From assembly GCA_030789695.1 (NCBI GenBank), contig CM061136.1:136164448-136228447 (forward strand): 64,000 nucleotides of DNA, in the 5' to 3' direction. Positions 7,057 through 61,622 of this stretch are shown piece after piece. This DNA is from Scilla litardierei (lineage: Eukaryota > Streptophyta > Magnoliopsida > Asparagales > Asparagaceae). Position 1 is the stretch's first letter. Each line of letters begins with the position of its first letter. Below the pieces are notes generated by a model that was not told the DNA's origin, made no database searches, and saw nothing but the letters and a program-made list of their open reading frames with translations. The position numbers and the translations under genes were made by a program.

Positions 7057-7735
7057 TATAAGGACCCTGGCTATGGAGAAACCACTAGAAGGGGGGTTGA
7101 ATAGTGTTTATGCAATTTAAAAAGATAGTTACACCAATTTAAATTCCTAGCCAACAAATAGTGCGGAATAGAAATAAACCCGAAATGAAACAAATGCAAA
7201 CGCAATGATGTTTCAAGGGTTCGGATTTCCCAAGTCACTTCCCGTCTTGTTCCCGGTAACCCTACGTCCCTTCTACCCGGTTAACAACCGGATACTCAAG
7301 TTAGAACCCTAACTTGAGGTTTCCTTAAAACCCACTTGTAGCAACCCTACAAGTGAAATCGAAATACAATCGATTGACCTTGGCTCCCACAACTTGGGAG
7401 CAAGCAAACCACTCTCACAAACCGAGAGTAAATCAAATAACGAAATTTATGAAATATGAAATTAAGCAACACTTACAATCACCTATGCCTTGAAGTAGAA
7501 ATTGAAGGAGAAGTGTGTTGTGTGTTGAAAGACTCTCTTGGAAGAGAGGAAAGCCCTTTCTCTTAACTGCACCAAATGCCTAGAAGATATCTCTTTGGTT
7601 CTAGGTTGGAGAGCAAGAGATTGAAGATTGGAATTCTTAGGGCTTTAGGATTTGAGAGCTTTGATCTTTGAAAGAATAAAAGCTTGAATTAATGAGTGAG
7701 TAACTAAGTAACCCCTCAATGGAATAGTAGAGGCT

Positions 7736-7747
7736 CCTTATATAGGT
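7736..7747 (-). promoter_or_regulatory. TATA box of G LTR
   Basis: The minus strand reads CCTATATAAGGA. It lies about 85 bp downstream (minus-strand sense) of the inverted-motif array and upstream of the leader, the layout of an LTR promoter. Confidence 0.55.
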
Positions 7748-7830
7748 TTCTCAAATCCTTCAAACGAATTCAGCAAAAACCCCTTTGAAATCCGTGAGGA
7801 AAAACACAACGGATAGAATCTGGGCCCTTG

Positions 7831-8482
7831 ACAGTCGACTGTTGAAGAGTTCACAGTCGACTGTTGTACAGTCAGAGAGAGTAGGTGAGAATTCATAATG
7901 GTAACTTACCACGTGGATAGTCGACTGATGACGCATAGACAGTCGACTGTTGAACCAATAGGCGACTGTAAATACTACTACAGGCGACTGGCCGTAAGTT
8001 GGATAAGTTGATGAAATCTGGAAAACGTCTGGGAGAACAGGACAGACGACTGATAAAGAGAAGACAGTCGACTGTTAATCAGAACAGGCGACTGTAATTC
8101 CTTCTACAGATGACTGTCAAAACCCTAAGTTTTTTCAGAGAGTCGAGTCAACAAATAGGCTCAAGGACATGCGACTGTTGTAGCATTGATAGTCGACTGT
8201 TCCATTGGACAGTCGACTGTAAATTCAACAATAGTCGACTGGCCAGATTAATCAGAGAAATTGATTTTGGGCTATAGATAGATAGGCGACTGATTAACAA
8301 AACACAGTCAACTGTCACTTGGACATGCGCCTGTGAATCATTCATAAGGCGCCTGTAAAAGTTAAAACAGAGAAGCCCAAAACTAGACTATAAAAGTTTG
8401 TGCATAACAGGCGACTGTAGAACAAAACAAAGTCGACTGTTTTTGAGACAGGTGACTGTAAAGCGTTCAGCAGTCAACTGTT
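7831..8482 (-). repeat. array of CAGTCGACTG-type motifs in G LTR, modules of four
   Basis: About six modules follow one another. A full module has four copies of a 10-mer close to CAGTCGACTG or CAGGCGACTG, separated by 12, 9-10 and 12 nt, so motif starts are 22, 19-20 and 22 nt apart. The clearest modules begin near 7921, 8041, 8169, 8282 and 8409. The first one (7831) is cut short. Individual motifs have diverged while spacing has been kept. Confidence 0.85.
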
Positions 8483-8792
8483 ATAAACATGACATGCCCA
8501 ATCTAGATTGAAATGAATTGTAGTCCAAGGAAGGTATGTTTACTGATATCCTAAGACTGAAATGAAGATGTGTGTGTGCTCCAACAATGTTCTACTTCTA
8601 AGCTACATACTAGAAGAGATATAAGAAAGTTACATTTGATGAACTCTCTCTTCTATCCAAAGCATGCGCTTGAAGTCTTCCAGGAGCTTCAATCACTGTC
8701 TACGATCATCCAATCCATTTCATTTGCTTTCAATGATCTTTAAGTGTCATCCATTGCAAGTAGATCTTCATAATAAGCTTAGGCAATGGATT

Positions 8793-8892
8793 TACTGTAA
8801 AATAGAGGATTAGTCACAAGTATTTATGTTTGCTCATCATTAACTGCAAAATAGAGGATTAGTCACAAGTATTTATGTTTGCTCATCATTAA
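8793..8892. repeat. 50-bp direct tandem duplication in G LTR
   Basis: A unit of about 50 bp running from ACTGTAAAATAGAGGATTAG to CATCATTAA occurs twice with almost no change (about 8793-8842 and 8843-8892), indicating a recent slippage duplication near the LTR start. Confidence 0.85.
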
Positions 8893-8923
8893 CACCAAGT
8901 AGGGAAGAGTCCAATACTCAATA

Positions 8924-9696: not shown

Positions 9697-11131
9697 CTAC
9701 GAGTGAGTGTGTCCAGGTGCAACAGAGGGGGAAGCTGTCTCTGGTCCAACAGGTACATCCTCTGGAGAAGGAGCAGCAGCAGCAACACCCTGAGTGGCAG
9801 ACACACCATGATGCACAACGAGACCAGTGATGATAGGAGGAGGAGGCTCACGAGGCTGGGGAGGAACAAATCGTCTAAGGTGCTGAGGGAAGGGCATACC
9901 CTGATACTGGAATGACAAAAATGCCAACTCATACAGACCAAAAACCATCTCAAACAGAATGTCATGAGAGGATGGAGCACAGGTAGATGGCTGGTCTGCA
10001 GGAGGAACCGTGGAGGAAGACGGAGCAGATGTGGATTTCCTCTTCTTAGATGCAGACTGCAGAGCCGAAGAGGACTTCGACTTTACAGAAGCATCGAGAA
10101 GATGACCAAAAGGCATGGGCTCGTAGGGAGTCAAATCAATCCCAAAATGATGAAAGACGAGTGTAAGAAGACCACCGTAGTGAATGTGAGAGGAGGAAGT
10201 AGTAAACTCGACCTTGTCCATCCTATCGAGGAGGACACCGGCCCAGTTTACGGACATGCAGGAAAAGATCACATACATACACCGAAGTATCTCATGGGAA
10301 GGCTAGTCAGAAGATCCGTACTTCGGCAGGATATTGGACTTCACCACAAGGTGAACAGCCCAACCCCTAGCCAAGAACATGGACGACCTAACACCAGAAG
10401 ATAGAGCAGAGGGTATCTTACGAAACATGTCACGGAGGACAGACTAATCAAGCTCATTAACATCAGAAATGGAAATGTCTGCAGGAAGGGATCCAGCGGA
10501 GGGAATCCTAAGAATGGTACCTAAAAGAGTGGGATCAATGCAAATGGGGGTCCCCTGGACAACAGTGTCAATAACTCCATTGGTAGCATACTCACCTCGA
10601 ATGCGATTAGCATAGAAAAGCTTAACCAAAAATGGATAAGCCCGAGGAGATTCACTCTGAGAGAAGCGAAAGAGGTTAGCCAATCGGGTAGCAGATAGGA
10701 TCTCAGATAATCTCTCAGCTGTGAAAGCGGGATAGACAATGAATCGCTCTCTAAGAAGTTTGATCCCGAGGAGAGAGAGAAATTTTGCCCAAGCACAAAT
10801 CATCTCGACAAATGGGAATGTAGGGATCAGAGGGTGGCATGACAAGGGTTTCTTCTTCGGAGCTCGACACGGATGGTGAAGGAGGAGCCTCAGCGCAAGG
10901 CTCATTGATGCGAACACCAATGGGCTTGCGCTGACACTTGACGAGGGGCTCAGCTTCAGATGAAGAAGACCCAGAAGAAGGAGAATAACCCCACAAAGAG
11001 GAGCGAGAGGGAGAATCAGCTTTCTTGGTTTGGGCCTTATAGGGTTGTTTGTTTTTGGCAGTGATAGGCTTGGGAACCCTAGGGCGCTTAGAAACAATAG
11101 TCTTTCCCTTGTTCTTGGTCTTGGGAGACAT
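9697..11131 (-). pseudogene. element G ORF3 (plant transposon third-ORF family), frameshifted
   Basis: The minus strand starts at ATG 11129-11131 (MSPKTKNKGK), with a basic, serine-rich N-terminus up to CRDDLCLG near 10800. The reading then shifts frame to a central domain with YPFLVKLFYANRIRGEY (about 10650-10600) and ends that frame at 10444. It shifts again to a final part with NWAGVLLDRMD and LTLVFHHFGI (10278 onward), finishing in an alanine/proline/serine tail. Order and motifs match the intact ORF3 of element F (20646-22307), which has YPRLVKLFYANRVRGQY and LTLVFRHFRV. The central part resembles the 'putative plant transposon protein' domain (recalled as Pfam PF20167); function unknown. 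At least two frameshifts make it a pseudogene. Confidence 0.75.
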
Positions 11132-11462
11132 TGCACAATCAAACGACGATTTTGAAAGAAAACACACGAGAGAGACAATGAGCGAAAGAACCAATGAGAG
11201 GAAATCAAACCTAGTCGAAAGGCACAAAGAGTCAATCGAGATCCGAGCAACGCAATCGACAGACGAGATGACAGAAAATCACTGGAGGAGCGATCGACTG
11301 AGGGTTTGAATCGGGGAGACGAGGAGGTTTCTATCGGAGGAGAGAGAAACTTTCGATCGAAATGAGGTGTCTCAAAGATATAACGAAGGGGCGAACAAAT
11401 CTGGGCCTTTGGATCAAAGAATCGACGGCTCAGATCAAATGAGTAAACCGCCACAATACGAG

Positions 11463-11500
11463 ACAGTCGACTGATGAACATTATTCAGTCGACTGATTGA
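11463..11500 (-). repeat. remnant of motif array upstream of G ORF3
   Basis: Two sites (ACAGTCGACTGA and TCAGTCGACTGA), 22-23 nt apart, lie about 330 bp upstream of the ORF3 start on the minus strand, with a TATATC sequence between (about 11376-11384). They are the same motif as in the G LTR. The array is cut off by the junction near 11503. Confidence 0.65.
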
Positions 11501-11502: not shown

Positions 11503-12524
11503 TGATAAGAGAAAAGCTGCCACTTGACCGAGCTGCAAAGCCACTCGATCGAGCTGATCATATACTCGACCCAAGTCACAACCAAATAGAGCAGCGTTCT
11601 GGAGAGAGTTCGGACCTAAAGTAGCTCGACTGAGTGGAGGGGCTACTCGACCGAGTAGCCTGTATCAGCCAAAGCCAAAGAAGCAGCAAAATAGTAGCCG
11701 CATGCAGCTCGGCCGAGCGACGCCCTACTCGACCGAGTAGGGCGACGCGGTCAGACAAGTTTGCAGGCCCAAGTGCACAGATTTTCTGAGATTTTTTGGG
11801 GTCCATACCCCTTGTATATAAGCACAATTTTTACCCTTTCTTAGGTAGCTTGCATATTTTCCTTAGTTTAATTTTAGTTTAAGTTTTTAGAGAAAATTTC
11901 TAGCCGTCGCTATTTTGTAGAGACCAAATTTGATATTTTTATTGGATATTTTTGCGTGGAATCTTGTTTTTCTTAATTATCTGCGATTGGCTATCATCCT
12001 ACGACATGTTGGTAACAATTCTCTAATCATTCTATGCTTTACTTGATGTTTCTATTATTATGATGAATTCTCTTGCCTTTATTGAATCTTTCATGTCTCT
12101 TGCTATGATCCATGAGTAGTTCTATTTAGGGCTAATGAATTAGCCCCATGATCTTAGGATTTAGATGTAAAGGTAGGATTTTTAGGTTGCGTTGGTATAA
12201 AAGGGACGTGTTTTGGTTGATCCAACCAAGTTTGTAGGATATCTCGAACTGGGATCATGTCCTCGGTCGGTGTCACACATGCATTTAAGGAGTATCATAT
12301 GATTTAATTAGGAGGTTAGTGGATTCAATCAGGGTTTGTGACCATACCCGACGCGCTCCTTGATGTGATCCACCGACATCCTATATCACTAGTTGATGAC
12401 TATCGCCTTTGTGTCAATGAGAGCCACCAAAATACACATCGAAATTCTATCCACGAGAGTGGCATAAATAGTTGTCGATCCTAATGCACAGATCATATGT
12501 GAGGCCACCCACCAGAGTGGGGGT
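11503..12524 (+). mobile_element. element E: gypsy-type LTR, left part
   Basis: This non-coding stretch continues at 25058 after the F insertion (the joined sequence reads smoothly across GGGGT). It has palindromes of the ACTCGACCGAGT type (about 11523-11745), a TATA box GTATATAAG (11814-11822) and a leader. The joined right part carries GGGATCGATATC and TGTACGCTTGTGG, which look like the end of an Athila/Tat-type LTR. No internal region flanks it, so it may be a solo LTR. I could not match a TSD, so the outer edges are approximate. Confidence 0.5.
11813..11822 (+). promoter_or_regulatory. TATA box of LTR E
   Basis: TGTATATAAG lies about 70 bp after the last ACTCGACCGAGTAG-type palindrome of LTR E. 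Confidence 0.5.
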
Positions 12525-12925
12525 TGTTGAATATTGGACTCCCCGGATTTGGTTTTGATGATGAGCAAACATAAATAATCCATGAACTAACAATTTGTGA
12601 GCGCAGTATTGGAGATCGTCGCCAAATTCTCGAGAACATTCAAAGCGACATCTCAACACTTCCCAAAGCTCGTATTCATGCCTAAAGCTTCGTTGAAGCT
12701 CTTGCGCCGTTTTGGAAGTTATGAAGAATCAATCGAAGCTCTCGAAGACCGTTTATTAAGGTTTTATTTATAGTCTTTTTAGCTTCGATATATAGAATGT
12801 TAAGCCTTGAGTATATCTTACCATTCTAACTTCATAACGCTCATATCGTAGCTCTAGGATCTTAGTACAAGTTCATTCTAACTTCCTCGAAGCGTCGCGC
12901 TTCGATTCGGACTTGTTTGTGCATG

Positions 12926-13464
12926 TTAGTTGGTACAAGAACAAGTACTGACCGACTAGATGGTGATCTAGTCGGTCAGCAACTCTTCTTGGACCGACTA
13001 GTTTGATTCCTTAATTTCTTGGACTTTACTGTTTACAGTTAGTCGGTCTACGTTGACTCACCGACCGACTAGTTTGTGAACTAGTCGGTCTGTGATGCTT
13101 CTTTGACCGACTAGTTGTGACTTACTGTTCATGCTAAATTTCTCCTAAGCTACTGTTTATCGTTAGTCGGTCTAAGAACGTTTGGTGACCGACTAGTTGA
13201 CAATCTAGTCGGTCAACTTTTGTTCTTGGACCGACTAAGTCAATGTGTATTCAGACTATTTCATTTTGCCTCTTAGTCGGTCTACGTTCACTGACTGACC
13301 GACTAGTTGTGAAACTAGTCGGTCAGAAAGTCTTCTTGGACCGACTAGATTTCTAGGTCTGAAATTCTCTTTCTTCTCATTTCCTTTCTTAGTCGGTCCA
13401 TGCTGTTTGACTGACCGACTAGTTGATGAACTAGTCGGTCAGTGATTATTCTTTGACCGACTAA
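12926..13464 (+). repeat. five 76-nt inverted-motif modules in F 5' LTR
   Basis: Modules begin at 12926, 13039, 13163, 13273 and 13389. Each is a 10-mer close to TTAGTCGGTC, 14 nt, GACCGACTAG, 8 nt, CTAGTCGGTC, 14 nt, GACCGACTAR: exactly 76 nt. The two central 10-mers form a hairpin with an 8-nt loop, and the outer pair can close a longer stem. The 14-nt spacers vary between modules while lengths do not. Unit-to-unit distance is 110-124 bp. The same array is in the 3' LTR at about 23701-24239 and in solo LTR D. Confidence 0.92.
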
Positions 13465-13517
13465 TTCTCCCAGATTTCTATCCGTTGGAGAATGACCTAA
13501 GTTGTTTTTATGGGACC

Positions 13518-13526
13518 CTATAAATA
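13518..13526 (+). promoter_or_regulatory. TATA box of F LTR
   Basis: CTATAAATA lies 54 bp after the last motif of the array and is followed by a leader. A copy is in the 3' LTR near 24293. Confidence 0.65.
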
Positions 13527-14279
13527 CAAACCTAGGTCATTTCTATCTAGGTTAGAGCTTCCATTCAGAGATTCATTTGAGATCAAAAGAGATAGCCATT
13601 CTCACTCAAATCTAAAGCTCTCTTCCTCACAAGAAACCCATTCTCTCTCATTTCTAGATCTAGAATCCATCTAGAGAGAAGCTTGTTCTTGGTGAGCTCT
13701 TCAAGCTATTGCTTGATCCAAGTCTCCAAATCATCCCTAGGCACCTATTGCTGGTCATTTCCTTGGTGCTAGGTCTTGGTGACTTCATCTTCCTCAAATC
13801 CTCCATTTCACCTATTGGGTAAGAAAAACTCAAGGTATAGGATTTTGTGGTAAGTTTGCTTATTTCAATATAACTCATTTATATTGCTTGTTGATTCTCT
13901 CGGTTGTGAGAGAAGGTTGTGATCCCGGGTTGTGGGATTCACTATTGCCGTTGTTGTATGATTTGATCTTGTGAAGGTTTTTCACAAGATATTCATAGTG
14001 GAAATCTTGAGTTAGGGTTTCTAACTCAAGTATCCGGAGGGGATCCGGGTGGTTGGGACGTAGGATCACCGGGAACAAGTCGGGGAGACTTGGGTGGATC
14101 CGAACCCATTAACATCATTTGTTTGCATTGTTAATTTTGTTGTTGTCATTCAATTTAAGCTTCCGCAAATTGATTTGGTAGTTGTTTGCAATTTAATTTG
14201 GAATTATACTCCTTATTATTTTAAAGTACTATTCACCCCCCCTCTAGTACTTGTGCAGTAGCTGGTAGGGCATTACATT

Positions 14280-14297
14280 TGGTATCAGAGCCAGGTA
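14280..14297 (+). other. primer-binding site (initiator tRNA-Met) of element F
   Basis: TGGTATCAGAGCCAGGTA begins two bases after the LTR end. TGGTATCAGAGC is the standard complement of the 3' end of plant initiator tRNA-Met used by copia elements. Confidence 0.9.
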
Positions 14298-14304
14298 CTT
14301 AGCT

Positions 14305-16545
14305 ATGTCTGCCAACGACAACAAGACCGTGCGTCCACCTTCCAACTATGACACCTTCAGGAACCGAGAAGGAGCATCTTCGGTGATGGAAGGACATTCC
14401 TCTACGAGGCCTCCATTCTTCAACGGTACCAACTACGTGTACTGGAAATGCCGGATGGAAACCTTCCTCCGGAGTGCATCCTTATGGAGGACCACATTGA
14501 AGGAATACATAGAGCCCGAAGAAGAAGACTTTGAGAAATGGACTACCGCGGAGATCGCCGCGGAGGTAAGCAATGCCAAGGCAATGAACGCCTTGCAATG
14601 CGCATTGGAGCCCGAGGATTTCAATAAGATATGCACATGTAAGAGTGCATATCAAATTTGGAACTCCCTCCTCATTCTTCATGAAGGGACGAGTAGGGTA
14701 AGAGACTCTAAACTCGTAGTCGTAAACAAAGATTACGAAATGTTTCATATGCAACAAGGCGAGAAGATGAAAGAATATTACGCTCGCTTTGTTGACATAA
14801 TAAACGAGTTAGAGGCCCTCGGCAAGTCCTACACTCAAAAGGAGAAGTGCTCAAAGCTTATTGAAGGACTTCCCTCTTCTTGGGAAAAACGTACCTTCGC
14901 CATCGAGGAAGGTAATGACATGAACAAATATACCGTAGTTCAACTAATGGGTACTTTGATGTCATACGAGGTACGCAAAGATAGCAAGGTGAAGTTACAA
15001 GAAAAGATGAAGTCCTATTTGAACCAAGATGCGCCTAAGAAAAAGGCGATTGCATTCAAGGCGGCTTCATCCACCTCTACCGATGATGAGGACTCGGAAG
15101 AAGAAATGGACATGGAATCCATTGCTCTCATGGCAAAGAAGTTCAATCGCTTCTTCCGAAAGGGTAACTTCAAACAAAAATCTAAATTTACTTCTACTAA
15201 CGCCTCTCCACCTTTGTGCTTTAAATGCAATAAGCCAGGACACATCAAAGCGGATTGTCCTCAAAACAAGCAAAAGGAGAAGTGGAAGGCACCGAAGTTC
15301 GACAAGTCAAAGAAGTACAAAAAGGGGTACAAAAAGGGACTTGTCGGAGCAACATTCACCGACTCCGAGGATTCCTCAAGCGGAGAGTCGGATGATGAGA
15401 AAGTGGAGCAAGCGCACATGTGCTTCATGGCAAGAGAGGAGCATGATCAAGGATCTTCCTCTTCCGATGATAGCGACGACGAAGGCGATGAGGTAACTAT
15501 GGATGATCTTAGGGATGCTAACTCTCATTTATGGTCTAAATACACTAAGTTAGTAAATAGATATACTAAAGTAAAAGATGACCTAGCTAGCATTCAAACC
15601 TCGCATAAGACTATCATCACCAACAACGACACCGTTGTTGAAGAGTTAAGAAATGAGATTGTTAATCTCAAATCTAAACTTGAACATGTTAGCATTGATG
15701 ATCCGAAAGAACATAGGATAGCGGATTTAACTTCTCAAAACTCGACCTTGAGTATTGAGAACGAGAATCTTAAATCTCGTGTTTATGTGCTCACATCGCA
15801 AGTATCCACATTAGATACTTCTATGCGTTCTCTCAAAGAGAAATATGAGAACACATTAGGCCGAATCAATAGATTCAATAAGGGTAAGGACCATTTGGAT
15901 AAAATCCTAAGTGACTTACTTCCGGCCAATCACCACATTGGTTTGGGGTATACGATGGGATGTCCATCCAAAGCGGCCACTACTTTTGTTAGGCCAACTT
16001 CCGGTGACTCTACGAGTGGTAGCAAACACTCTATTGGTAGTTCATCTACCAATGGTGCTTCCACCTCGTCCACACCCTCTTTTGGAAAGAACCCCACTTT
16101 GGGTGGACCTCCAAAGAAGGGGCATGCTTATATGTACACAAATACCATGCCACGTAGGAACACACGTCCTACTCCACCATCTCACACATATGATGATTTC
16201 TATGCTACACGTTCACGGGCACGTGCACACCATGTGAGACACCCTCACACACGTGTTCCCACACATGCATATGTTCACCCACCTCATCATATGAATAATT
16301 CTCGTCGTGCACCATTCCATCATGTTCCGTATGCCTATCCACAACATGCATCACGTAGAAACCAACAACGCATGCATGCACCCAATAGGATGATGGCTCC
16401 CAAAATTTTCACTATTTGGAGCCCAAAGGACACAAGCATGGATGAAAAACAAGTATATATGAATGCTTATTTTTCGGATGTTGTGCATAGTAGAAATTAT
16501 GTGGGGAAGTCAAAGTCCAATTGGACTTGGCTTCCAAAGGTCTAA
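14305..16545 (+). CDS. gag: element F Gag polyprotein
   Basis: 746 residues starting at the first ATG after the PBS. The N-terminal half is the copia capsid-type domain (FFNGTNYVYWKCRMETFLRS near residue 40). A CCHC zinc knuckle CFKCNKPGHIKADC lies near residue 305 and should bind genomic RNA. Then come an acidic serine/aspartate-rich stretch, a coiled-coil-like region (about 400-530) and an unusual histidine/arginine/proline-rich tail (about 625-710). The protein assembles cytoplasmic virus-like particles in this family. The frame ends at TAA 16543-16545, but pol lies in the same frame after four stops, all inside the intron-like segment 16540-16599. The frame itself is undamaged, fitting a young copy. 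Confidence 0.92.
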   Translation: MSANDNKTVRPPSNYDTFRNREGASSVMEGHSSTRPPFFNGTNYVYWKCRMETFLRSASLWRTTLKEYIEPEEEDFEKWTTAEIAAEVSNAKAMNALQCALEPEDFNKICTCKSAYQIWNSLLILHEGTSRVRDSKLVVVNKDYEMFHMQQGEKMKEYYARFVDIINELEALGKSYTQKEKCSKLIEGLPSSWEKRTFAIEEGNDMNKYTVVQLMGTLMSYEVRKDSKVKLQEKMKSYLNQDAPKKKAIAFKAASSTSTDDEDSEEEMDMESIALMAKKFNRFFRKGNFKQKSKFTSTNASPPLCFKCNKPGHIKADCPQNKQKEKWKAPKFDKSKKYKKGYKKGLVGATFTDSEDSSSGESDDEKVEQAHMCFMAREEHDQGSSSSDDSDDEGDEVTMDDLRDANSHLWSKYTKLVNRYTKVKDDLASIQTSHKTIITNNDTVVEELRNEIVNLKSKLEHVSIDDPKEHRIADLTSQNSTLSIENENLKSRVYVLTSQVSTLDTSMRSLKEKYENTLGRINRFNKGKDHLDKILSDLLPANHHIGLGYTMGCPSKAATTFVRPTSGDSTSGSKHSIGSSSTNGASTSSTPSFGKNPTLGGPPKKGHAYMYTNTMPRRNTRPTPPSHTYDDFYATRSRARAHHVRHPHTRVPTHAYVHPPHHMNNSRRAPFHHVPYAYPQHASRRNQQRMHAPNRMMAPKIFTIWSPKDTSMDEKQVYMNAYFSDVVHSRNYVGKSKSNWTWLPKV

Positions 16546-16599
16546 CTTTTGAGGACCCAATGACCTTGGGTACCATGATATGAAAGTTTCTATCTTTAG
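16540..16599 (+). other. 60-nt stop-filled segment with GT...AG ends between gag and pol
   Basis: The segment begins AAAG/GTCTAAC and ends TTTCTATCTTTAG/GT, good matches to plant 5' and 3' splice sites. It has length 60 (a multiple of three), starts at a codon boundary of gag and ends at a codon boundary of pol. All four in-frame stops between gag and the protease motif lie inside it. It is shorter than most plant introns, and I see no strong branch site. Splicing is an inference from sequence only. Confidence 0.5.
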
Positions 16600-19500
16600 G
16601 TACTCAAGGAAAAGAAAAAGAAGAGGAGCAACAAATTTAAATTTAGCTCCAAAGGGAATTGGATACTCGATAGCGGGTGTTCAAAACACATGACGGGTGA
16701 CGCTCAATTTCTCTCCGGAGTGGTTCCCATTGCAAATGGAAATCGCGTCGTATTTGGAGGCAACGAGAGCGGAACCATCGTCGGTGTTGGTAAAGTGGGT
16801 AACCCTTCTAAACCCTTAATTAGTGATGTCTATCTAGTTAATGGTTTAAATCATAATCTTATTTCAATAAGCCAACTTTGTGACAAAGGTTACAAAGTTA
16901 GCTTTGCGAAAGGATTGTGTCATATTTCAAATGATAATAATAAATTATTATTTTCCGGCAAACGCCATAAAGATATTTATATTTTGGATCTTCCTAAGTC
17001 ATATGAACAATGTCTCGTTGCCAACACAAGTGAACAACACTTATGGCATCGACGCTTTGGACATGTGAACTTTGGAACACTTTATAAGCTTTCGAAATTA
17101 AATTCCATTAAAGGTTTTCCGAAGCTCGTTTTTGAAAAGAAAGGTTTTTGTGATTCTTGTCAACGTGGCAAGCTTCCTAAATCTTCATTTAAACCTAAGA
17201 AAAGCATTTCTACGAAACGGCCACTAGAGCTATTACATCTAGATTTATTTGGGCTAACTAGAGTTGCTTCCTTTGGAAATGCAAGATATGGACTAGTCAT
17301 CGTTGATGATTATTCAAGATTTACATGGGTATTTTTCTTATGTAATAAAAATGAAGCTTTTGAAAACTTCACAATATTTGTGAAGAAAGTACAAAATCTC
17401 ATCGGAACCACCATTGTCACTATTTGTAGTGATCATAGGGGTGAATTTGAGAATGAGTCTTTCTCAAATTTTTGTGATGATCTTGGAATTACTCACACGT
17501 TTTCTTTCCCTCGCGCACCTCCTCAAAATGGTGTTGTTGAGAGGAAGAATAGAACGCTTGTGGAGTGTGCTCGCACTATGCTCGAAGATAGTCAACTTGG
17601 TTATCAATTTTGGGCGGAAGCGGTACACACCGCTTGTTATGTGTTTAATAGAATACTTTTGAGGCCCGGCACCAAACAAACTTGCTATGAATTGTTGTTT
17701 GGTAGATTGCCTCAAGTTAAACATTTTCGTGTTTTCGGCGCAAAGTGTTTTATTAAAAACACATATGATAATTTGGACAAGTTTGATCCGAGATCGGATG
17801 AGGGGATATTTGTTGGGTATTCCTCACGTAGCAAAGCCTACCGGATATACAACAAAAGATCCTCTACGATCGAGGAATCACTTCATGTCTCTTTTAATGA
17901 GAATTTTACTACTTCTAGAATTTCAAATGATAAGGACTCTATGGATGTTTTATGTGATTCGTTTGAAAATTCTAAGTCTATTGATTCAATTGATTCTATT
18001 GATACTAACCCGACTAATGAAGTTGTTGAGAATGTGCCTAGTGATCAAGGTATTCCCAAGCGGCTTCATACCGTTCGCGACCATCCCCATGAGCAAGTCA
18101 TTGGCAATATTAATGATAGTGTCAAGACGAGATCTCAAGTCCACCACTTCGCCAATTGTTCCTTTGCCTCATCGATAGAGCCAAAGAATATAGTTGAAGC
18201 TTGCGAAGATAGTGCTTGGATCCTTGCCATGGAGGAGGAACTCATTCAATTCGAGAGGAATGAGGTATGGGAGCTTGTTCCTTTGCCATCGAAGAACCAC
18301 ACCGTCATAGGGACAAAGTGGATCTTCAAGAACAAAACCGACGAAAATCAAGTCGTCGTCCGGAACAAAGCTCGGTTAGTTGCTCAAGGCTATCGCCAAG
18401 AGGAAGGTATCGATTTCGAAGAATCCTTCGCTCCGGTAGCTAGATTAGAATCAATTAGACTTTTATTGTCTTATGCATGCCATAAAAATTTTAAGTTATT
18501 TCAAATGGATGTTAAAAGTGCATTTTTAAACGGAGATGTTGTTGCGGAAGTTTACGTTTCTCAACCTCCGGTCTTCATAAATGAAAAATTTCCAAATCAT
18601 GTTTTTAAACTAAAGAAAGCTCTTTATGGTTTGAGACAAGCTCCTCGAGCTTGGTATGATCGCCTAAAGAATTTTCTTTTGGATTTGAATTTTAAAATGG
18701 GCGAAGCCGATTCTACACTTTTTGTTAAGCATACGAATAATGATATTTTATTAGTTCAAATTTATGTTGATGATATCATTTTCGGTGCTACTAACTTCAC
18801 TCTTTGCGAAGAGTTTTCTAATGTTATGAAGGACCAATTTGAGATGAGCCACATGGGCGAACTCAAATATTTCTTAGGTCTCCAAATTCGCCAATTGAAC
18901 GGTGCAATCTTCATCCACCAAACGAAGTATACGGTGGAGTTGCTTAAGCGATTTGGAATGGAAAGTGCTTCCGGGAAAAAGACTCCAATGAGCACGACTA
19001 CGCATCTTGACAAGGATACGGGCGGTAAGGATGTAGACATTCGTCTATATCGAGGTATGATAGGTAGTTTACTTTATCTTACCGCAAGTAGGCCCGATAT
19101 TATGTTTGCCGTATGCATATGTGCTCGTTATCAGTCTCAACCTAATGAGTCTCACTTAGTAGCGGTAAAGCGTATTTTCCGTTATCTAAGTTACACTTTA
19201 GATTTTGGATTACTTTATCCGAAATCTAGCACGTATGAGTTAGTCTCATACAGTGATGCCGATTATGCGGGATGCAAATCCGACAGGAAAAGTACTAGTG
19301 GCACTTGCCATTTTCTAGGAAATTCTCTTGTCTCTTGGTTTTCCAAGAAGCAAAATTCCATATCACTTTCAACCACCGAGGCGGAATATATTGCCGCCGG
19401 TGCCGCTTGTGCCCAGGTTCTTTGGATGAGACACACTTTGAAGGATTTTGGTATTCATTGTGATACTAGCCCTATCATGGTGGATAACCAAAGTGCTATC

Positions 19501-19701
19501 TGTCTTTCAAAGAATCTGGTGCACCATTCCCGATCAAAACACATAGATGTCCGACACCATTTCTTAGATGATCATGTTGCTAAAAAGGACATCATTTTAG
19601 TGTACGTTGAAACCCAAAAGCAAATCGCCGATATTTTCACGAAACCCCTAAAGGAGGACTCCTTTGTGCGGTTGCGTCGAGAATTGGGGATTATGGGGTG
19701 A
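16600..19701 (+). CDS. pol: element F Pol: protease, integrase, reverse transcriptase, RNase H
   Basis: The open frame follows the stop at 16597-16599. The first ATG is at 16690, but the protease site [10 protein letters not shown] straddles it (about 16666-16695), so translation must enter from upstream. Then come the pre-integrase zinc-binding block ([11 protein letters not shown]), the integrase core with D, D and E in [14 protein letters not shown] and NGVVERKN, and copia RT with [12 protein letters not shown] and the catalytic YVDD (about 18762). RNase H follows with [25 protein letters not shown] and [11 protein letters not shown]. All visible catalytic residues are present, and the 1003 residues from the first ATG are full length. 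It copies element RNA into DNA and integrates it. Its link to gag is discussed at the 60-nt segment. Confidence 0.92.
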
Positions 19702-20645
19702 ATCCGAGATATAGGATTCATGTTTCATTCAATTATCTTGCATGCTATTATATTTTGCGATATTTCATTCATGCTAGATTTGAATTTTTGGGAATTTTAT
19801 GTGATATGTTTGAATTTATGATCGAATTCATATTTCAATGTCGTATTTAAGATTTCGACGTTTATGGGGTAATTTAGATGACTAATGAGAGTGTTAAATG
19901 TTTCATCCAAGTGGTTTGTGAAGAGAAATCAATTATCATTTTTTGGACTCTTCTAGTCGGTTTCAGTTCATTTGTCAACCGACTAGATGCTCATCTAGTC
20001 GGTCAGCAAGTGAACTCAGACCGACTAGATCAAGCTTTTATCTTACTCTTATCATTTTCTTTCTTTAGTCGGTCTCAGTACACTTACCGACCGACTAGAT
20101 TGAAAACTAGTCGGTCAGTGTGTATACTGCGACCGACTAAATCTAGCCCTAAAAATCCCTGTTTGCCTCTGTTTCGACTTAGTCGGTTCAAGCTTATTGA
20201 CCGACCGACTAGATCATAATCTAGTCGGTCAGTGCTTGAACTGTGACCGACTAAGTGGGTTAGGGCAAATGCGTCTTTTCGATTTCCAGACCGACTTAAA
20301 CTCATTTCGTCTGACTAAAAATCATTTTAGTCGGTATTCCCTTCAGCTCCAGCCCGAAAAATCCCAAACCCCTCTCGAGCCCCTTCGTATTCCCGTCGAC
20401 TCCGGCCAGATCTCCAGCCATCCCCGCCGTCCGCCGCCGTCGACTCTTCCTCCTAGGTAAAACCCCCTCTCCTAGGTCTCGATTCATACTCTAGGGTTTG
20501 TTTTATATCTCATCTAGGGTTCTAGGTTGTTGTAATTCTTGTGTTAGGGCTTGTGCTTCTAGGGTTTGTGTTTTCCGATTTCTTTTGATCTCTAGGGTTT
20601 GTGTAGCTAGTAGTTTCAGTTGCTTGTGCTCGTCGTGCCACGAAC
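19702..20645 (+). promoter_or_regulatory. pol-ORF3 spacer of F: second motif array and gene-like leader
   Basis: Three full 76-nt modules of the LTR type begin at 19953, 20065 and 20179 (same 10-14-10-8-10-14-10 geometry), with a decayed fourth to 20336. In these copies the outer arms pair more extensively than in the LTR, for example CTAGTCGGTTTCAGTTCA with TGAACTCAGACCGACTAG. After the array comes a C-rich, leader-like stretch with CCTAG/GTAAAACC near 20457 (possible splice donor) and several TCTAGGGTTTG repeats before the ORF3 ATG. No clear TATA box is seen. The layout suggests a separate ORF3 promoter (inference). Confidence 0.6.
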
Positions 20646-41543: not shown

Positions 41544-41630
<87 letters not shown>

Positions 41631-43597: not shown

Positions 43598-43603
43598 TCC
43601 CTG

Positions 43604-45463: not shown

Positions 45464-45481
45464 TCCCTGGCAACGGCGCCA
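45464..45481 (-). other. primer-binding site (tRNA-Asp) of element B
   Basis: The minus strand reads TGGCGCCGTTGCCAGGGA. TGGCGCCGTTGCCGGGGA is the complement of the 3' end of plant tRNA-Asp, used by Athila elements, so there is one mismatch. It lies six bases from the LTR end. Confidence 0.85.
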
Positions 45482-45487
45482 AAAACT

Positions 45488-47467: not shown

Positions 47468-48848
47468 TGTTCGAAGCAACGATCTAAGATCTTGGTTTGA
47501 TGATGACAAACGCGTCGTTATATCTGACGTGTGTGCTTAGTGTGTTTCAGGATTGGCGAAACGATACATCTTTCGCTATTTGAGAAACTGCTATTCATAT
47601 AGCTATTTGGGTGGGATAGAGAGCTTTGGCTAAAGCAAAGTGGACTTGGTCCAATATGGAGCAAAGTGGACTTGGTCCAATAGTGGAGAGATGGAATCAA
47701 ATCAATGTGGGATGTGATCGAATCAATTATCAAAGTGTTGGTTCTACCCAATTCCTACTCAAATATATTACACAATATATTTCCTTCTGAAAGATGGATT
47801 CAAATCTACCACTCCTATTTATATAGGATTCTTCTTTACCCTAACCGAAGACTAGGATGCGGCTACACAAGATTCTCCCCAGGCTATATCCAAACCCTAG
47901 CACAAAATATATATAAGGCATCATCCTAGGGTTGAAGAGTGCGGCAATAAAAAATTGAGAGGGGCTACAAAAAGGAAGCGGCTACACAAAAAAATGCGGC
48001 TGATAATCAATTGAATAAACCCTGTTGGCCATCAAAAAGCTCAAAGAGTCAGCCAGCATACATTTCTCCAAAGCACAAACCAACATCATCTTCATCACCA
48101 AGCGAAGGGTCATCCTCAAGCGTCAAAATCCTCCACCTATCCAACTATATCGTCAAGAGTCCACGTAAAGTATCATCTAGTTGCTGTTGCCGACGATGAC
48201 AAGAGACCGACGCATCTATTGTTCGAGTCGGAGACAAGCCGCTGATCACCTTTGCCGTCAAAAGGTCGACGATCACCACTGCTGCGAGGCGTTCGAATCT
48301 GCAGGGAAGCCTGCCGTCCGCTGACGAAGATCCACGCCAATAGCCTTGTCGATGTCGAAGTCAGAGACATCTTCGTCGCCGTCGACCCATCACACCGGAG
48401 AACGCCAAAAGCTCACCGCCATCTCATTGCCGTAAAGAAGAAGAGGTCGGAGATCGTTAGCGACCGTACACGTCGAATTCCTCGTGCCAAAGATCCTCCT
48501 GAAGACATCACCGTCGTCACGAGGAGTCGACGTCGTAGCCCTCCCGCTGGTCGTCGTCATGAAGAGCTCGTCACCGCTGCCGAGAAGGAGTCGCCGCCAT
48601 TGGCAGAGAGCTCGCCGTCGCTGAGAGCCTGCCGTCGTCGAGGAGTTGCCACCGTTCAAAGTTGCCAAAGAAGCCGCTCGAAGCAGCTGCCATCGCCTCT
48701 GTCATCTGTATAACGCCGTCGTCCACCATTGTAGAACTCGAGTACAGCAAGTCACATCCACGAAGGAGCGCCGTTGATCGCGAAGAGCTTAACGCCTTTG
48801 TTGCTGCTGAATGTTGCTAGTCGCCTTCGAAGACGGAGAAGACGACGT

Positions 48849-50562
48849 TGTTGAGTATTGATTCCCCGGATTTGGTTTTGGATGATGAGCAACCATAAAT
48901 ATATCATGAACTAACACTTTGTAAGCGCAGTTATGGAGATCGTCGCCAAATCTATATGAACATCAAAAGGGACGTCTCAAGACTTCTCAATACGCGTGAT
49001 TGTATGAGTTTTATTGAAGTCAAGAATGAAGATTGAAGCTTTGAAGATGGTTCGTAAGGTTTATTTTATAGTTTTCTAGCTTCATAGAATAGAATGTTAA
49101 GCCTTGAGTAGGACTTACTTTATAATCTTCATTTCGCTCATATCTTAGAGCTAGGATCTTAGTAGAAGTCCATACGATCTTTCCCAAAGCTTCGCGCTTC
49201 GATTCGCAACTTCTAGTGCATGTTAGTTGGTTCAAGTAGAAGAGCCAAACGACTAGATGACGATCTAGTCGGTCGGCAACTCTACATGAACCGACTAGTT
49301 TGCCTTTTCAATTTGAGCCTGAGCTACTGTTTATACTTAGTCGGTCTGTGTTCATTGATCGACCGAATATTTGATGAACTGGTCGATCAACTTTCCTTCT
49401 TAGACCGACTAGTTGAGCTTTACTGTACATGCCAATTTTCACCTGACTTACTGTTTATCGTTAGTCGGTCTATGCACATTTGGCGACCGACTAGTTGATG
49501 AACTAGTCGGTCAACATTTGTTCTTGGACCGACTAAATCAATTTGTTCTCAGACTTTCAGTTTTATCTCTTAGTCGGTCTCAGTTGAGTAACCGACCGAC
49601 TAGTTGTGAAACTAGTCGGTCAGCTACTCTTCTTGGACCGACTAGTTCCTTTTATCTGAACTTCGACCTATTCCCTGTTCACTCATTAGTCGGTCTACGT
49701 TGATTGACCGACCGACTAGTTGATGAACTAGTCGGTCGGTGGTTATTCTTTGACCGACTAGTTGGGTTCAGAATAGAGCCGTTGGAGCCTTTCTTCAAAC
49801 GTTTTTCTCTCCATCCCTCCTCTATCCTATATATAGTTGGAGGGGCTCGTTCATAAGTTTCAAGGCTGCCATTTTAGAGATTTGGAGAAATCTAAGAGAA
49901 GCTATTCAACTCCATTCTAAAGCTTTCTCTTCCTCACAAGAATCTCTCCCTCAACTCTTTGAGCCATTTCCTCAAGAGAGATTCTCTCCATTGTGAGCCT
50001 TCCAAGCCAAGAGCTTGATCCAAAGTCACCATCCTCCATCCTAGCCTTCGATCGCTGATCTTATTGGTGGAGATTCGGTTTGGTGACATTCTCTCCTCAA
50101 AATCCATCATTGCCCTAATTTGGTAAGATTTACTCAAGGCATAGGATTTTGTAGGTAAGTGTTTATTTCATTTCATTGAATTGAATTGTTGTATACTCTC
50201 GGTTGTGAGAGTTTGCGTGATCCCGGGTTGTGGGATTCATGGACATCGATTGTAGGTCGATTACACTTGTGGAGTTTCCGCAAGTGGGTTAGTGGAAATC
50301 TTGAGTTAGGGTTTCTAACTCAAGTATCCGGAGGGGATCCGGGTGGTTGGGACGTAGGATCACCGGGAATAAGTCGGGGAGACTTGGGTGGATCCGAACC
50401 CGTTACATGTTTTGTTTGCGTTTGACTATCTCTTGTTAATTGTTGTTTATTCCGCATTGTCGTTTGTTTCTTGCACAATAATTAGGAATAACTATCTTGA
50501 TTATTTTAAAGTACTATTCACCCCCCTCTAGTACATGTGCAGTAGCTTCACAGGGCACTACA
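48849..50562 (+). mobile_element. solo LTR D of the SIRE-type F family
   Basis: 1714 bp from TGTTGAGTATTG to GGGCACTACA, with a perfect duplication GACGT at 48844-48848 and 50563-50567. Nothing but the LTR is present, so the internal part was lost by LTR-LTR recombination. It is clearly related to the F LTRs over the whole length. It carries five 76-nt modules (starts 49223, 49337, 49461, 49570, 49686) and a TATA box CCTATATATAG near 49827. Confidence 0.93.
49223..49761 (+). repeat. five 76-nt inverted-motif modules in solo LTR D
   Basis: All five keep the 10-14-10-8-10-14-10 spacing of element F even where motifs are mutated (for example CTGGTCGATC in the second module), while the 14-nt spacers have diverged. 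Confidence 0.9.
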
Positions 50563-51362: not shown

Positions 51363-51531
51363 AAGGCCACTCAGAGCTTTTCAAGTGCTGAAAGTGTCTG
51401 ATTCACTCGGTCGAGTGACTAAATCACTCGGCCGAGTGGCAAATAAATGACAAAGAGGGGTATCACTCGGCGGAGTGTCTGATTCAAGAGCTTTTCAAGT
51501 GCTGAAAGTGTCTGATTCACCAGATCCAACA
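51363..51531 (+). repeat. flank-derived insert between C 5' LTR and PBS
   Basis: After the LTR end CCAGATCCAACA (51351-51362) come 157 bp of Athila spacer DNA, then a second CCAGATCCAACA (51520-51531), then the PBS. The first 90-100 bp match the DNA just outside the 3' LTR (56463 onward), including AAGGCCACTCAGAGC and two palindromes. A 34-bp piece (AGAGCTTTTCAAGTGCTGAA...ATTCAC) occurs at 51373-51406 and again at 51487-51520. Confidence 0.85.
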
Positions 51532-51533
51532 AG

Positions 51534-51551
51534 TGGTATCAGAGCAGGTTA
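51534..51551 (+). other. primer-binding site (initiator tRNA-Met) of element C
   Basis: TGGTATCAGAGCAGGTTA. Normally this would abut the LTR, but here it is 169 bp further in than the first LTR end. Confidence 0.85.
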
Positions 51552-56462: not shown

Positions 56463-57050
56463 AAGGCCACTCAGAGCTTTTCAAGTGCTGAAAGTGTCTG
56501 ATTCACTCGGTCGAGTGACTAAATCACTCGGCCGAGTGGAAAATAAATGGCAGAGAGGGGTTTTTCGAATCTTCCCTGATCAGTTCCCTACTCGACCAAG
56601 TAGGGTTTTCACTCGGCCGAGTGAAAATTTCACTCGGCCGAGTGGGATGCTATTTTCAGCTCTAACTCTCTATTTTGCTCCACTTTTTGATTTTCTTCTC
56701 CCCGTCAGTTTCTTTCTTCTCTTGATGCCTGAGCGCATCCCTGGAGCGCTCTCCTTTGCCATGGTCGTCCTCCATTCATATGGTTCCTATTCTCCATCTC
56801 CTGAAATGAAAAATATTGCCCGTTGTCAGGTTTTTCTTCGACACTTGACTCTAAACACTAATAAAGATCTAAAACAAAAATAAAAGGAAAAATTTAACTA
56901 AAATAAGATAAAACCGTCGGGTTGCCTCCCGACAAGCACTCATTTAAGGTCTTAAGCTTGACCCCTTAAGATACGCGTTTAAAGCTCGATGTTTGGCGCA
57001 TGTGAGATGCGCGCGTCAAACTTGCCGGGAAGGCCGCTTAGGTTTAGTTG
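56463..57050 (-). mobile_element. element A spacer with palindromes, right of C
   Basis: Palindromes at 56504-56645. Further right (earlier on the minus strand) is the GACCTTAAATGAGTGCTTGT and GGGAGGCAACCCGAC mark near 56950-56915, as in B. No RT or integrase. Confidence 0.65.
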
Positions 57051-58155: not shown

Positions 58156-59735
58156 TCAACCGAAATTTCTTCCCCCCGGCTCGTTAGTTTGAATCATGGC
58201 AGGGGTAGTGTCCTTTCTGCCTCTTGTAATTACCGCCACAACTGCATTGGTGTGGCCGGTATTGCTCCGTGGGTTTTGTTCCGGTTGAGACGACAATTGT
58301 TGATTGTTCTTATTGAGCAATGCTAGTTGCTCCGATAATTGTGCCAAAAAATGTGTTGAGGAAATCTTGTTGGACCGTCAGTCTTGCATTGATCTTCTTT
58401 TGTTCGGCCATGAACTCTTCAACCCTTGCTTCATGATCCGACCTTGGCGGTGCTTGCGGTGGATTGGGTGCCATCCATCCTTGATTGTACCCCGAGGATC
58501 TACAGCGCCCCGCTTATTGCCTCGATGGGTAGTTTTGTTGTTTGGATGCTCTTTGTTGATATTGCGGTTGTTGTGGAGGCTGGGCTTGTAGTTGTTACGG
58601 TGGTGGATTCAAGCCTCCATCATTGTTGGCGTATGAAAATCCGGGGTGCCCCCTTGTAGCCGGGTTCACCCAATAACCGGTACTACCCGCAACATATTGA
58701 GCTTGCTCCATGGCTCCATCTCCTTGCTCCCCTCTAACAAACATAACATGAGCTTGATCTTGCCAAGCGCTCATGCTTCCTCCCGGTGTAGAAACGGTGG
58801 GGGCTCCATGCGGTTCACTAACCAACTTTTCTAGTCTCTCCACGACCTTGTGAAGAGAATCAAATTTTGTAGAGAGCTCCGCCATGGCCTTTGCCTAATA
58901 AATACTTGCCGGTTTCAAGGATGATGAAGAATTTCCCCTCTCATCGGCCCATTGTTGATTTTTCGATGCCATCTCCTCAAGTAAAGTCGTAGCGCCATCC
59001 GGTGTCTTGACAAGATAGCTCCATTGGCGGTTGCATCAATTATTTGCTTTGTGCTCGGTTGCAATCCGTTATAAAAGCTATGCACAAGCTCCCATGGCTC
59101 AATACTGTGATGGGGGCATTAGTGTTGGAGATCCTTGAAACGCTCCCATGCCTCATATAGAGTTTCTTGAGGGACTTGCTTGAAGGACATGAGTGCGCTT
59201 CTTATCTTGATAGTCTTGGATGGCGGGTAAAACTTGTTGACAAATGCGCTCACCTGCTCATCCCAAGTAGTGAAGATCCCCTCGGCTTGCGTCCTCAACC
59301 AATACAATGCATTGTCTCGAAGAGTAAACGGAAAGAGGCGCAGTCGAATAGCGTCAACCGGCACGCCAGGCATCTGGAAAGGGCGCATTTAGCCAAGAAC
59401 GATTGCAGATGGTAGTGAGGGTTTTCTTGTGAGTTTCTATGAAATGGGTCTTGTTGCATCAACACTACAAGTCCTGTATTTAGCTCAAAGTTCTTGTCGG
59501 CCGCCAACTCCGGCATCACTATAGAAGAGGTGGTAGACGTGGTCTTAGGCTGTAAACTATCTCGGATGGAGACAAGCCTAGCCATACGTGCTGCTAGCTC
59601 CCCTGGTGTTTTCGGCACGGCCATATGATCTTCCTCTGTAGCAAATCTCCTCTCAGCTCTAAGCCTCCTTGCCGTACGCTCGATCTTAGGATCAAATAAT
59701 ATATCTTCTTGCGATGCCTTCGATCTCGTGTACAT
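58156..59735 (-). pseudogene. gag: element A Athila-type gag, several breaks
   Basis: Starts MYTRSKASQEDILFDPKIER at 59735. The gag domain continues after a frameshift near 59390 (PFTLRDNALYWLRTQAEG, FVNKFYPPSKTIKIRS). A TAA lies just after FKDLQH near 59119, and another break near 58980. Further parts: AELSTKFDSLHKVVERLEK, YWVNPATRGHPGFSY (58885-58595) and a C-terminal piece with RKDTTPAMI (58347-58156). Homologous to B gag along its length but more degraded. Confidence 0.8.
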
Positions 59736-59847
59736 GCACAGAAAAAGAGAGTCAAGATAGAATTGTTAGCACAATAGAGGAATAAAAGATTGAAAAAAAT
59801 GAAAATAAAAAGAAATAGCTAAGTAAAGAAAATAAAATACCGTCGCC

Positions 59848-59865
59848 TCCCCAGCAACAATACCA
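59848..59865 (-). other. decayed primer-binding site of element A
   Basis: The minus strand reads TGGTATTGTTGCTGGGGA, against TGGCGCCGTTGCCGGGGA for tRNA-Asp. All four changes are C-to-T or G-to-A, three of them within the CG-rich core, as expected of deaminated methylcytosine. Confidence 0.7.
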
Positions 59866-59871
59866 AAAACT

Positions 59872-61622
59872 TGATCGCGCCCGGATGTACACCCGAAAAA
59901 CGACTGTAGTCTTACCGCAAGCGCACGGTGAAGTGGCGAGCGGGTATCGAACACATGGATGACAAATGACAACACTCTATCTTGATCACCTAGCTATTGA
60001 TGGTAGAATGGAATGGTTTGGATAATAATGTCACTGTCGTTCAAATAACAAATAGAATTCTATATAATAAAAGCGTCTAGGGCTAGAGAATCCCCACTAC
60101 GGGTCATCACTTATCCTTGTGGATCATGAATCTCAATGTTACGAAGCTTGAATTGAGGTGAACTAGTCGTAACTGAATATAGAACCAAGCTCATGCTCTC
60201 GCGATATTGCTGGTCTATAGCAACCTAGATTAGGGCCCACTCTCATGCAAATCCTAACCTAAGCCACTAGCATGAAGATCGACATCATCGTCTAATCGCA
60301 TCTCGAGCCCACTCTCGTGCAAACTCGAGCTGTGATCTAGGTTATGATAGTTCGTATTCGTCCAATCTCTTGCAAACAAATATGAGTATAGATTTATAAT
60401 AAAAATCCTAGCTTTCGTCCAATTCTTGCAAACCAAGTCTAGAGAATCTCGATTATAAACCTAAATCGAATATCTTGGCCTTCCCATCGATTGAAATCCA
60501 ATCTCTTGCAAACCCCAATCAATGGAAATTCCTAGATATTCGTAGTAAATCAATCATAACCTAACCATTTATCAATCCTAGCAACAATTTAATTCATTCA
60601 TCACAATTCTAAGATCGGATCCATAGGGTTCATCCCCATGCCCTAGAACGACGGAACTACTCATAATTAATCATAGCAATCTCAGAAATAACGAATGAGA
60701 TCATAGCGCAATTCATTATAGAGAGAAAACAATTCATAAAAACTAGAAATTTAAATAGAAAGAACAAACCAAATTGCTCGTATTTGATCTCCAGCTGAGA
60801 ATTACAATAACAATATCCGTCAAAATTAACTTCAAGTCCCTCCTAAAACTAGGAATAAAACTAGCCTATAAAACTATCCTTAAATACAAGTAATCATCCA
60901 GAAATTCCTGACAGATTTGCCCCTGGCGCAGTCCAAAACCCTAATTCGCGACACAGTTGGACTGCGCCACTCGGCCGAGTGGAACATATCACTCGGCCGA
61001 GTGACAAACCCAACGAAAAACAGAGAAATGGGGGGTTTCGGGGGTCTGTCACCCTGTTCCAATCGGGCGAGTGGTCTTCTTCACTCGGTCGAGTGAGCTT
61101 TATTGCTCGGCCGAGTGGGTCTTCTCCAAATTCCAGTAAGTCAGATGATTTTCGGGAGAAAAACCTTGTCATACTCGGGCGAGTGGGCTTCTTCACTCGA
61201 CCGAGTGAGATTTCTCACTCGTCCGAGTGGACTTTGACTCAATGTGCTCCAGTATCCGTTTCACTCTGTCGAGCACGTGCCTTCACGTGGCCGAGTGAAC
61301 TGTCTGTTCGGCCGAGTGGGCTGCTTCTGTGGCTCTTTCTTCTCCTCCTCGCCTCCTCGTCGATTCTATCGAACTTCTTCCTCTTCCGCTCATCCTTTAG
61401 CGCTGCTAGCTCCTTAATAAGGCCATCGGTAATGCTCCGGTGCACGTGAAAGTTCCTTGATCTCATTTTTTCTCCAAATCGTTCCATATTTCATGAAATA
61501 CGACAAAAACAAGAAATAGTGAAAAGCAATGCGATATCGTCGAATAATTGTGAAAACACAATATGGGCAATTGAAATGACATGAAAACATGCAGAAAAAA
61601 GGTGTAAAATAAGGAGTGATCA
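59872..61622 (-). mobile_element. 5' LTR of element A
   Basis: 1751 bp, TGATCGCGCCCGG...GGAGTGATCA on the plus strand, followed by TSD TGTTT. Palindrome array 60968-61320. Confidence 0.93.

Follow-up and report, generated by a model that had tools for sequence, protein, structure and literature searches.

Why should several families of long terminal repeat (LTR) retrotransposons, belonging to two superfamilies, each carry a palindromic motif of its own in two separate places, once in the LTR and again upstream of an extra 3' open reading frame (ORF)? The question is raised by a stretch of 64,000 nucleotides from the 3.68 Gb genome of Scilla litardierei (contig CM061136.1, positions 136,164,448-136,228,447, forward strand), here called the window, whose elements and fragments are designated A to G. 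A preliminary description of the window had proposed that the extra ORF, named ORF3 in F and G and ORF-1 in A and B, encodes or controls a factor that reads the motif of its own family at two promoters. The two-place, one-motif-per-family layout was found to be real and to extend beyond the window to further families, and its sequence features suggest, tentatively, that the reader may be encoded by the element itself.

Paired palindrome arrays in the window

Palindromes specific to each family are densely arrayed in the LTRs of F, D, G, A and B, and in F, G, A and B the LTR motif is repeated upstream of the extra 3' ORF. Motif counts in the window were compared with those of shuffled sequence. 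The F half-site GACCGACTAG, with at most one mismatch, gave 68 matches against 1.8 expected (10 shuffles, maximum 4), whereas the G motif ACAGTCGACTGT and the A/B motif CACTCGGCCGAGTG, each with at most two mismatches, gave 21 against 1.4 (10 shuffles, maximum 5) and 49 against 0.2 (10 shuffles, maximum 1). The sequence CTCGNNCGAG occurred at 50 sites against 0.5 expected, a count reached by none of 100 shuffles. In a hexamer test blind to the motifs, the LTRs of F, D, G, A and B and the internal regions of F and A lay far above shuffles, and LTR2 of C was marginal (7 against a null maximum of 6). A CGG-CCG core is present in F, in A/B and in a further family, H, described below; G has GTCGAC instead.

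The F element (12525-25052, plus strand) is a young Ty1/copia element whose LTRs (12525-14277 and 23300-25052) are 99.4% identical. The half-site scan located 19 half-sites in its 5' LTR (12950-13464) and 18 in its 3' LTR (23725-24239); an internal array of 11 half-sites, alternating in orientation in nearly all cases, lies at 19953-20254, upstream of ORF3 (20646-22307, 553 amino acids). D (48847-50562, plus strand) is a solo LTR related to F (about 75%), with 16 half-sites at 49265-49761. G is a minus-strand fragment with one LTR (7057-8915), which holds 19 ACAGTCGACTGT-like sites at 7831-8481, a broken ORF3 (9697-11133, two stops in the frame) homologous to that of F (pieces 33-51% identical), and a truncated internal array of two sites (11463-11496). 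The Athila-type element A (34855-47200, minus strand) has LTRs (45486-47200 and 34855-36596) that are 92.1% identical; motif scans placed arrays in its 5' LTR (46568-46896), its 3' LTR (35940-36270) and internally (41916-42260, CACTCGGCCGAGTG), together with broken pieces of an ORF of the ATHILA ORF-1 type (38740-40275). B (28984-61622, minus strand; LTRs 59871-61622 and 28984-30563), also of Athila type, is interrupted by A and C, and retains pieces of an internal array located by motif scans (56504-56644 and 47326-47435) and pieces of ORF-1 (34473-32748). The second array of the same motif that had been proposed upstream of the extra ORF was confirmed in F and in A/B; in G it is cut to two sites, and is full in nine of nine G relatives.

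The LTR arrays had also been described as lying 50-90 bp upstream of a TATA-like box. Measured from the last array site, this held for F (54 bp), D (66 bp), E (77 bp), G (TATATAA at 87 bp), A (84-86 bp, TATTTAA type) and the 5' LTR of B (82 bp), but not for the 3' LTR of B, where the nearest TATA-like box is 202 bp from the array. Among the relatives of G, four of six LTRs had a TATA-like box at 86-87 bp; in the LTR pieces of the other two (G78 and G57), where the arrays run near the end of the piece, none was found. The H copies H1 and H2, with the box only 12 bp from the array, are a further exception.

The status given to E and C changed. E (11544-11737, plus strand), considered an array family in the preliminary description, has four exact CTCGNNCGAG sites out of the 50, but it is a fragment with no visible ORF partner and was not significant in the hexamer test (best 6, null maximum 6). 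C had been presented as an element without extra ORF or array. It was rejected as an ORF-less negative control because its internal part spans only about 2.7 kb between the LTRs (its gag-like frames were judged by eye, without a family search). Its LTR edges carry two or three A-type motifs where C sits inside the array of B. The LTR ends of C and the internal array of B share gtgctgaaagtgtctgattc and A-type motifs (51380-51534, 56480-56561) at the place where C is inserted, which may reflect either the position of the element boundary or gene conversion.

Paired arrays elsewhere in the genome

The genome assembly, in which contigs C1-C13 are chromosome-sized (the largest of 825 Mb), was searched for relatives of the extra ORFs. 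With PF03078, 92 places were scored and 30 loci cut out, revealing a third Athila motif family, H, whose two copies analyzed further (L061 and L062) each have one array before ORF-1 and another in the 3' LTR. The H-type motif AACCGATCGGTT, allowing at most two mismatches, was counted over the 1.5 kb preceding the match: all 30 H loci had six to nine sites of their own (shuffle maximum 3) and no foreign motif. Similarly, all 30 F loci, ranked by ORF3 protein score and not by motif, had seven to nine F half-sites upstream of ORF3 (shuffle maximum 1), with four stray foreign matches in the whole set.

A search with the G ORF3 gave at least 151 matches, from 100% down to 54% identity among the matches listed. 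Nine were taken, spread over 78-54% identity, and for each a piece preceding ORF3 and a second piece at the LTR offset were examined. The internal array was present in all nine (6-12 sites each, at most 1 in 200 shuffles) and the LTR array in six (9-17 sites each, at most 2 in shuffles). Wherever an array was found in F, G, A, B, H1, H2 and the nine G relatives, the other three motifs were absent. At the thresholds used, each family keeps to its own motif.

Spacing and conservation of the palindromes

Neighbouring palindromes were 20-22 bp apart in 118 of 212 gaps in G (random mean 10, maximum 23), 37 of 57 in A/B/E (mean 2.6, maximum 9) and 11 of 34 in H (mean 1.4, maximum 6); in each case none of 1000 random placements was as high. 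In F the half-site gaps were of 18 bp (11 gaps) and 24 bp (20 gaps), that is, 31 of 42 at 18-24 bp and none at 20-22 bp. The spacers of 14 G arrays were 29-42% identical against 26-27% expected from base composition and, since they are only slightly alike, the spacing appears to be maintained without recent tandem copying. The spacers of A/B are about 50% alike and their LTRs contain 22-bp tandem units, a likeness attributable to extension of the palindrome into the spacer plus tandem copies. Once the motif was masked, the internal and LTR arrays of A, H1, G60 and G63 shared nothing; since only the motif is common, simple copying from the LTR does not account for the internal array in these elements, and that explanation was rejected for them. 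In F, about 300 bp of the internal array can be aligned with the LTR array at 72%.

The motif changes more slowly than the spacer in F and G. In 30 copies of the F internal array the minor-base rate was 0.0061 in half-sites and 0.0307 in spacers, a 5-fold difference. Polymorphic sites numbered 12/110 in half-sites against 42/200 in spacers (P 0.028), and sites with more than one minority base 2/110 against 24/200 (P 0.0011). In nine G copies the motif was 95.0% identical against 78.0% for the rest of the array, and all 25 control hexamers, several of which are variants of the motif, were below it (mean 86.8%, maximum 93.0%). Within the F internal array, CpG sites are half as variable as non-CpG sites, whereas in seven of seven F regions outside it their variability is 1.6-3.2 times that of other sites.

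The extra ORF

F ORF3 matched PF20167 (Transposase_32; E 6e-15, residues 169-341) and H1 ORF-1 matched PF03078 (ATHILA ORF-1; E 1.9e-30), both over the Pfam cut-offs, making them clear members of the respective families. One B piece matched PF03078 at E 1.6e-6, the other B piece and both A pieces (E 0.011 and 0.16) falling below cut-off; the first A piece was aligned to H ORF-1. A cross-match of H ORF-1 to PF20167, at E 0.001-0.002, did not reach the curated cut-off. Profile alignment of copia ORF3 with Athila ORF-1 covered 172-190 columns, and hhalign gave E values of 4e-4 one way and 0.002 the other with none of 100 column shuffles as good, at probabilities of 14-52%. The two ORF types therefore look homologous in a shared domain, and since this domain is common to copia and gypsy ORFs, the term "convergent" applied to the system in the preliminary description is doubtful.

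The pN/pS ratio of F ORF3 in the 30 copies was 0.167 overall, 0.044 for residues 130-345 and 0.605 for the C-terminus, against 1.29 and 1.88 in shifted-frame controls, and that of H ORF-1 was 0.271. The copies had been chosen by score (protein or family), a choice that reduces pN. Score ranking alone should not create the contrast between domain and C-terminus in F, and the domain is under purifying selection. Synonymous difference along F ORF3 was itself uneven (0.123 in residues 130-345 against 0.026 C-terminal, copies L001-L030).

Basic K[KR]x[KR] clusters resembling nuclear localization signals (NLS) occur in F (at residue 46), H1, B, one G piece and L063, and are absent from another G piece and from the A piece. 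L063 is a locus of the PF20167 family with a 923-amino-acid frame, many equal-scoring copies and polypurine tracts AAGGGGAG; TGTTGGA direct repeats were seen by eye in its linker and LTR start. No protein relative was found at E 0.001 in a large protein database (7995 candidates scored), and viral contigs searched with the Athila ORF alignment gave no match. Kinship with DUF1985 was not supported at the sensitivity of the thin profiles used, which could miss a distant link: hhalign scored like shuffles (31 and 65 of 100 reached the real score). DUF1985 itself is present in the genome (150 scored) as 289-amino-acid frames in many equal-scoring copies at many places, which looks like a young transposon family.

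Other features of the elements

F is a Ty1/copia element by its gag (14269-16545, plus strand; PF14223 E 1.2e-26, zinc knuckle) and its copia-type RVT_2 pol (16600-19701, plus strand; PF07727 E 2.5e-78), and it is probably of Sirevirus type, judging from element layout. The ORF3 leader (20262-20645, plus strand) has a conserved splice-donor-like CTAG|GTA followed by hypervariable sequence: between 20262 and 20640 copies L001-L030 differ by 17% on average against 2-4% in neighbouring regions, and one to three TAGGGTTT boxes occur in the six copies shown. The leader is predicted to be a 5' untranslated region with an intron.

A and B are assigned to the gypsy superfamily, Athila type, by Retrotrans_gag in A and ATHILA ORF-1 pieces in both. 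The H backbone has ATHILA ORF-1, an aspartyl protease and short matches to the LTR ends of A/B. In A, B and H the interval from the protease-like frames to the internal array yielded no reverse transcriptase (RT), RNase H or integrase among the open frames listed and scanned. A, B, L061 and L062, with gag or protease-like frames and ORF-1, are numerous and apparently non-autonomous. Between its internal array and ORF-1, A contains two direct copies (95.7% identical) of a 431-bp AT-rich repeat (40699-41593) that is self-complementary at about 68%.

Relation to known systems

The Sirevirus half of the layout is a rediscovery of a 2010 description (Bousios et al., PMC2829016), in which 13 Sireviruses carry a palindromic motif in the LTR upstream of the TATA box and 9 of the 13 have an ENV gene and extra linker copies of the motif, 77 of 79 copies lying before ENV. 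The motif was missing from the classic copia elements compared there and was regarded as specific to Sireviruses among them, and an internal promoter for ENV was proposed. F, D and G likewise have a palindromic LTR motif upstream of a TATA-like box, and boxes 5' of the ORF occur in F, the G remnant, nine of nine G relatives and 30 of 30 F loci. The CGG-CCG core of the Sirevirus boxes is matched by F but absent from G, as in the published Tnd-1 exception, and ACAGTCGACTGT is two transitions away from the tobacco Tnd-1 box ACAATCGATTGT. In contrast to the Sirevirus system, the layout described here is also found in gypsy Athila elements (A/B and H), without a copia backbone. A term search of PMC2829016 found no analysis of box-to-box spacing, and in its sections covered no link of the boxes to an element-encoded reader was found. 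The same layout in gypsy Athila elements, or a shared spacing rule, was not found in print among titles and abstract beginnings of the open-access literature, nor was any later work on extra ORFs and anti-silencing recognised there as describing it. New here are the Athila layout, the spacing rule and the cross-superfamily ORF homology beside matched arrays, as well as the retention of ORF-1 and both arrays where no RT or integrase was found.

The preliminary description had named VANC of the VANDAL elements as the closest parallel, leaving the Sirevirus boxes uncited. The likeness stands in that VANDAL elements too have clusters of a short family-specific motif in non-coding DNA and an extra element-encoded protein, but VANDAL elements are MULE DNA transposons whose VANC carries DUF1985 and DUF287 (PMC5735166), whereas the present elements are LTR retrotransposons whose ORF3/ORF-1 has no detectable DUF1985 similarity. 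VANC-like action for LTR elements in general has been raised as an untested idea (PMC12844716). An extra 3' gene near repeat arrays is also known from Retand, whose antisense TRP28 ORF is predicted to bind DNA (PMC11963269), and from Grande, whose gene23 product is a nuclear protein with its own promoter (PMC7264820); these differ in having an antisense ORF from another family, and no matching LTR array is described in the sections covered. PF20167 has been stated to be related to PF03078, and an NLS has been predicted for a sunflower Athila ORF(+) containing PF20167 (PMC11728184). For neither family was a tested function given in the literature found, in the sections covered.

What could read the arrays

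In the reading that we favour, at slightly less than an even chance, the extra ORF encodes the family's own DNA-binding activator, which reads the palindromes at both promoters. F, G, A/B and H each have their own motif in two arrays, and the predicted action of the ORF product is to bind the palindromes as paired dimers and activate both promoters, the array before the ORF acting as a promoter. Element transcription would then yield reader, and reader more transcription, in a feed-forward loop. With less assurance, the reader might, like VANC, protect the CpG-containing sites from host DNA methylation instead of serving as a plain activator. We know of no binding or demethylation activity of ORF3 or ORF-1. 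A, B and H, in which no RT or integrase was found, have retained both arrays and ORF-1 along with gag or protease frames, possibly because the enzymes can be borrowed in trans whereas a reader must match its own motif. At the level of sequence this reading is based on the paired arrays, the family-specific motifs, their spacing of two helical turns, the slow change of the motif, purifying selection and the ORF homology.

Several observations weigh against it, besides the score-based choice of copies for pN/pS and the low hhalign probabilities. The one-mismatch F half-site scan gave stray matches in E (2), in A (1) and at position 62789 (1). The slower change of the motif did not extend to H, where a 12-mer mask showed no difference (P 0.81), a half-site mask chosen afterwards was marginal (0.022 against 0.056, P 0.055) and CpG sites gave no clear contrast. 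No LTR array was found in the 1-kb LTR pieces of G75, G71 and G66, nor a palindromic array in the presumed LTR of L063 (2709-3690), the 5' side of whose ORF was outside the scan. No DNA-binding fold was obtained: an AlphaFold2 model of the F domain from window sequences only had pLDDT 40 and was not used, and the Protein Data Bank searched by sequence gave nothing for Athila ORF-1 and matches of E 0.28 or worse for ORF3. Arrays without the ORF and the reverse, which the preliminary description had held would refute its proposal if common, do occur to some extent: in the sections of PMC2829016 covered, 4 of the 13 motif-bearing Sireviruses have an LTR array only and no ENV, and six ENV-bearing Sireviruses have no boxes. 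The expected co-divergence of motif and ORF3 was likewise seen only in part, each ORF type having its own motif across clades, while within the G clade the motif is fixed although ORF3 falls to 54% identity among the matches listed. A conserved host factor would explain this fixation equally well.

The alternative that the arrays are enhancers for host transcription factors, a different one for each family, with the ORF being envelope-like, a movement protein or a gag accessory, is possible, if somewhat doubtful. In agreement with it, Bousios et al. matched the Sirevirus motifs mainly to sites of stress-related plant factors (PMC2829016), and both the ENV-less array families and the constant G motif are points in its favour. 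On the other hand, four unmixed motifs, each at two places and with near-common spacing, would need four host factors of similar architecture, and a homologous ORF accompanies the arrays in both copia and gypsy families. An element-encoded reader is favoured over unrelated host factors by the Athila layout, the spacing rule, the ORF homology and the retention of ORF-1 with its arrays, but only modestly, because ORF-less array families exist and DNA binding is a prediction.

That the internal array is the promoter of an envelope-like gene only, the LTR array being an ordinary enhancer and the ORF product a membrane envelope protein, seems improbable. The name ENV and the internal promoter proposed for the Sirevirus gene (PMC2829016) agree with such a role, as does one hydrophobic stretch each in the broken G and A pieces (19-residue averages of 2.71 and 1.92). 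However, the hydrophobic residues of G precede the domain, in a part of the broken copy that may be out of frame, no 19-residue window exceeded 1.6 in F ORF3 (best 1.39), H1 ORF-1 (1.55) or the L063 ORF part (1.19), and NLS-like clusters are present. Least probable, and already disfavoured, is that the arrays are functionless by-products of tandem duplication or LTR-to-internal copying, since the tandem units and half-alike spacers of A/B and the aligned arrays of F that would fit it are set against mostly dissimilar G spacers at fixed spacing, motifs slower than spacers in F and G, less variable CpG sites in the F array, and the lack of anything common outside the motif in A, H1, G60 and G63.

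A broader proposal can be made, more speculative than the reader itself and somewhat doubtful: the PF20167/PF03078 gene and a two-turn palindrome array may form a swappable module, spread between copia and gypsy elements, that serves as a private transcriptional or anti-silencing switch of an origin independent of VANC.

In the literature found, no function has been proven by experiment for the "envelope-like" ORF of Sireviruses and Athila elements. If it encodes a family-specific DNA reader, these retrotransposons, which are abundant in plants, would be equipped with activators or anti-silencers of their own, and many plant retrotransposons would encode a private switch, with consequences for the question of why bursts involve a single family at a time. 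It would also provide new domains for sequence-specific DNA binding, with targets that can be deduced directly from the element, and the pairing of motif and ORF makes the reader idea directly testable.

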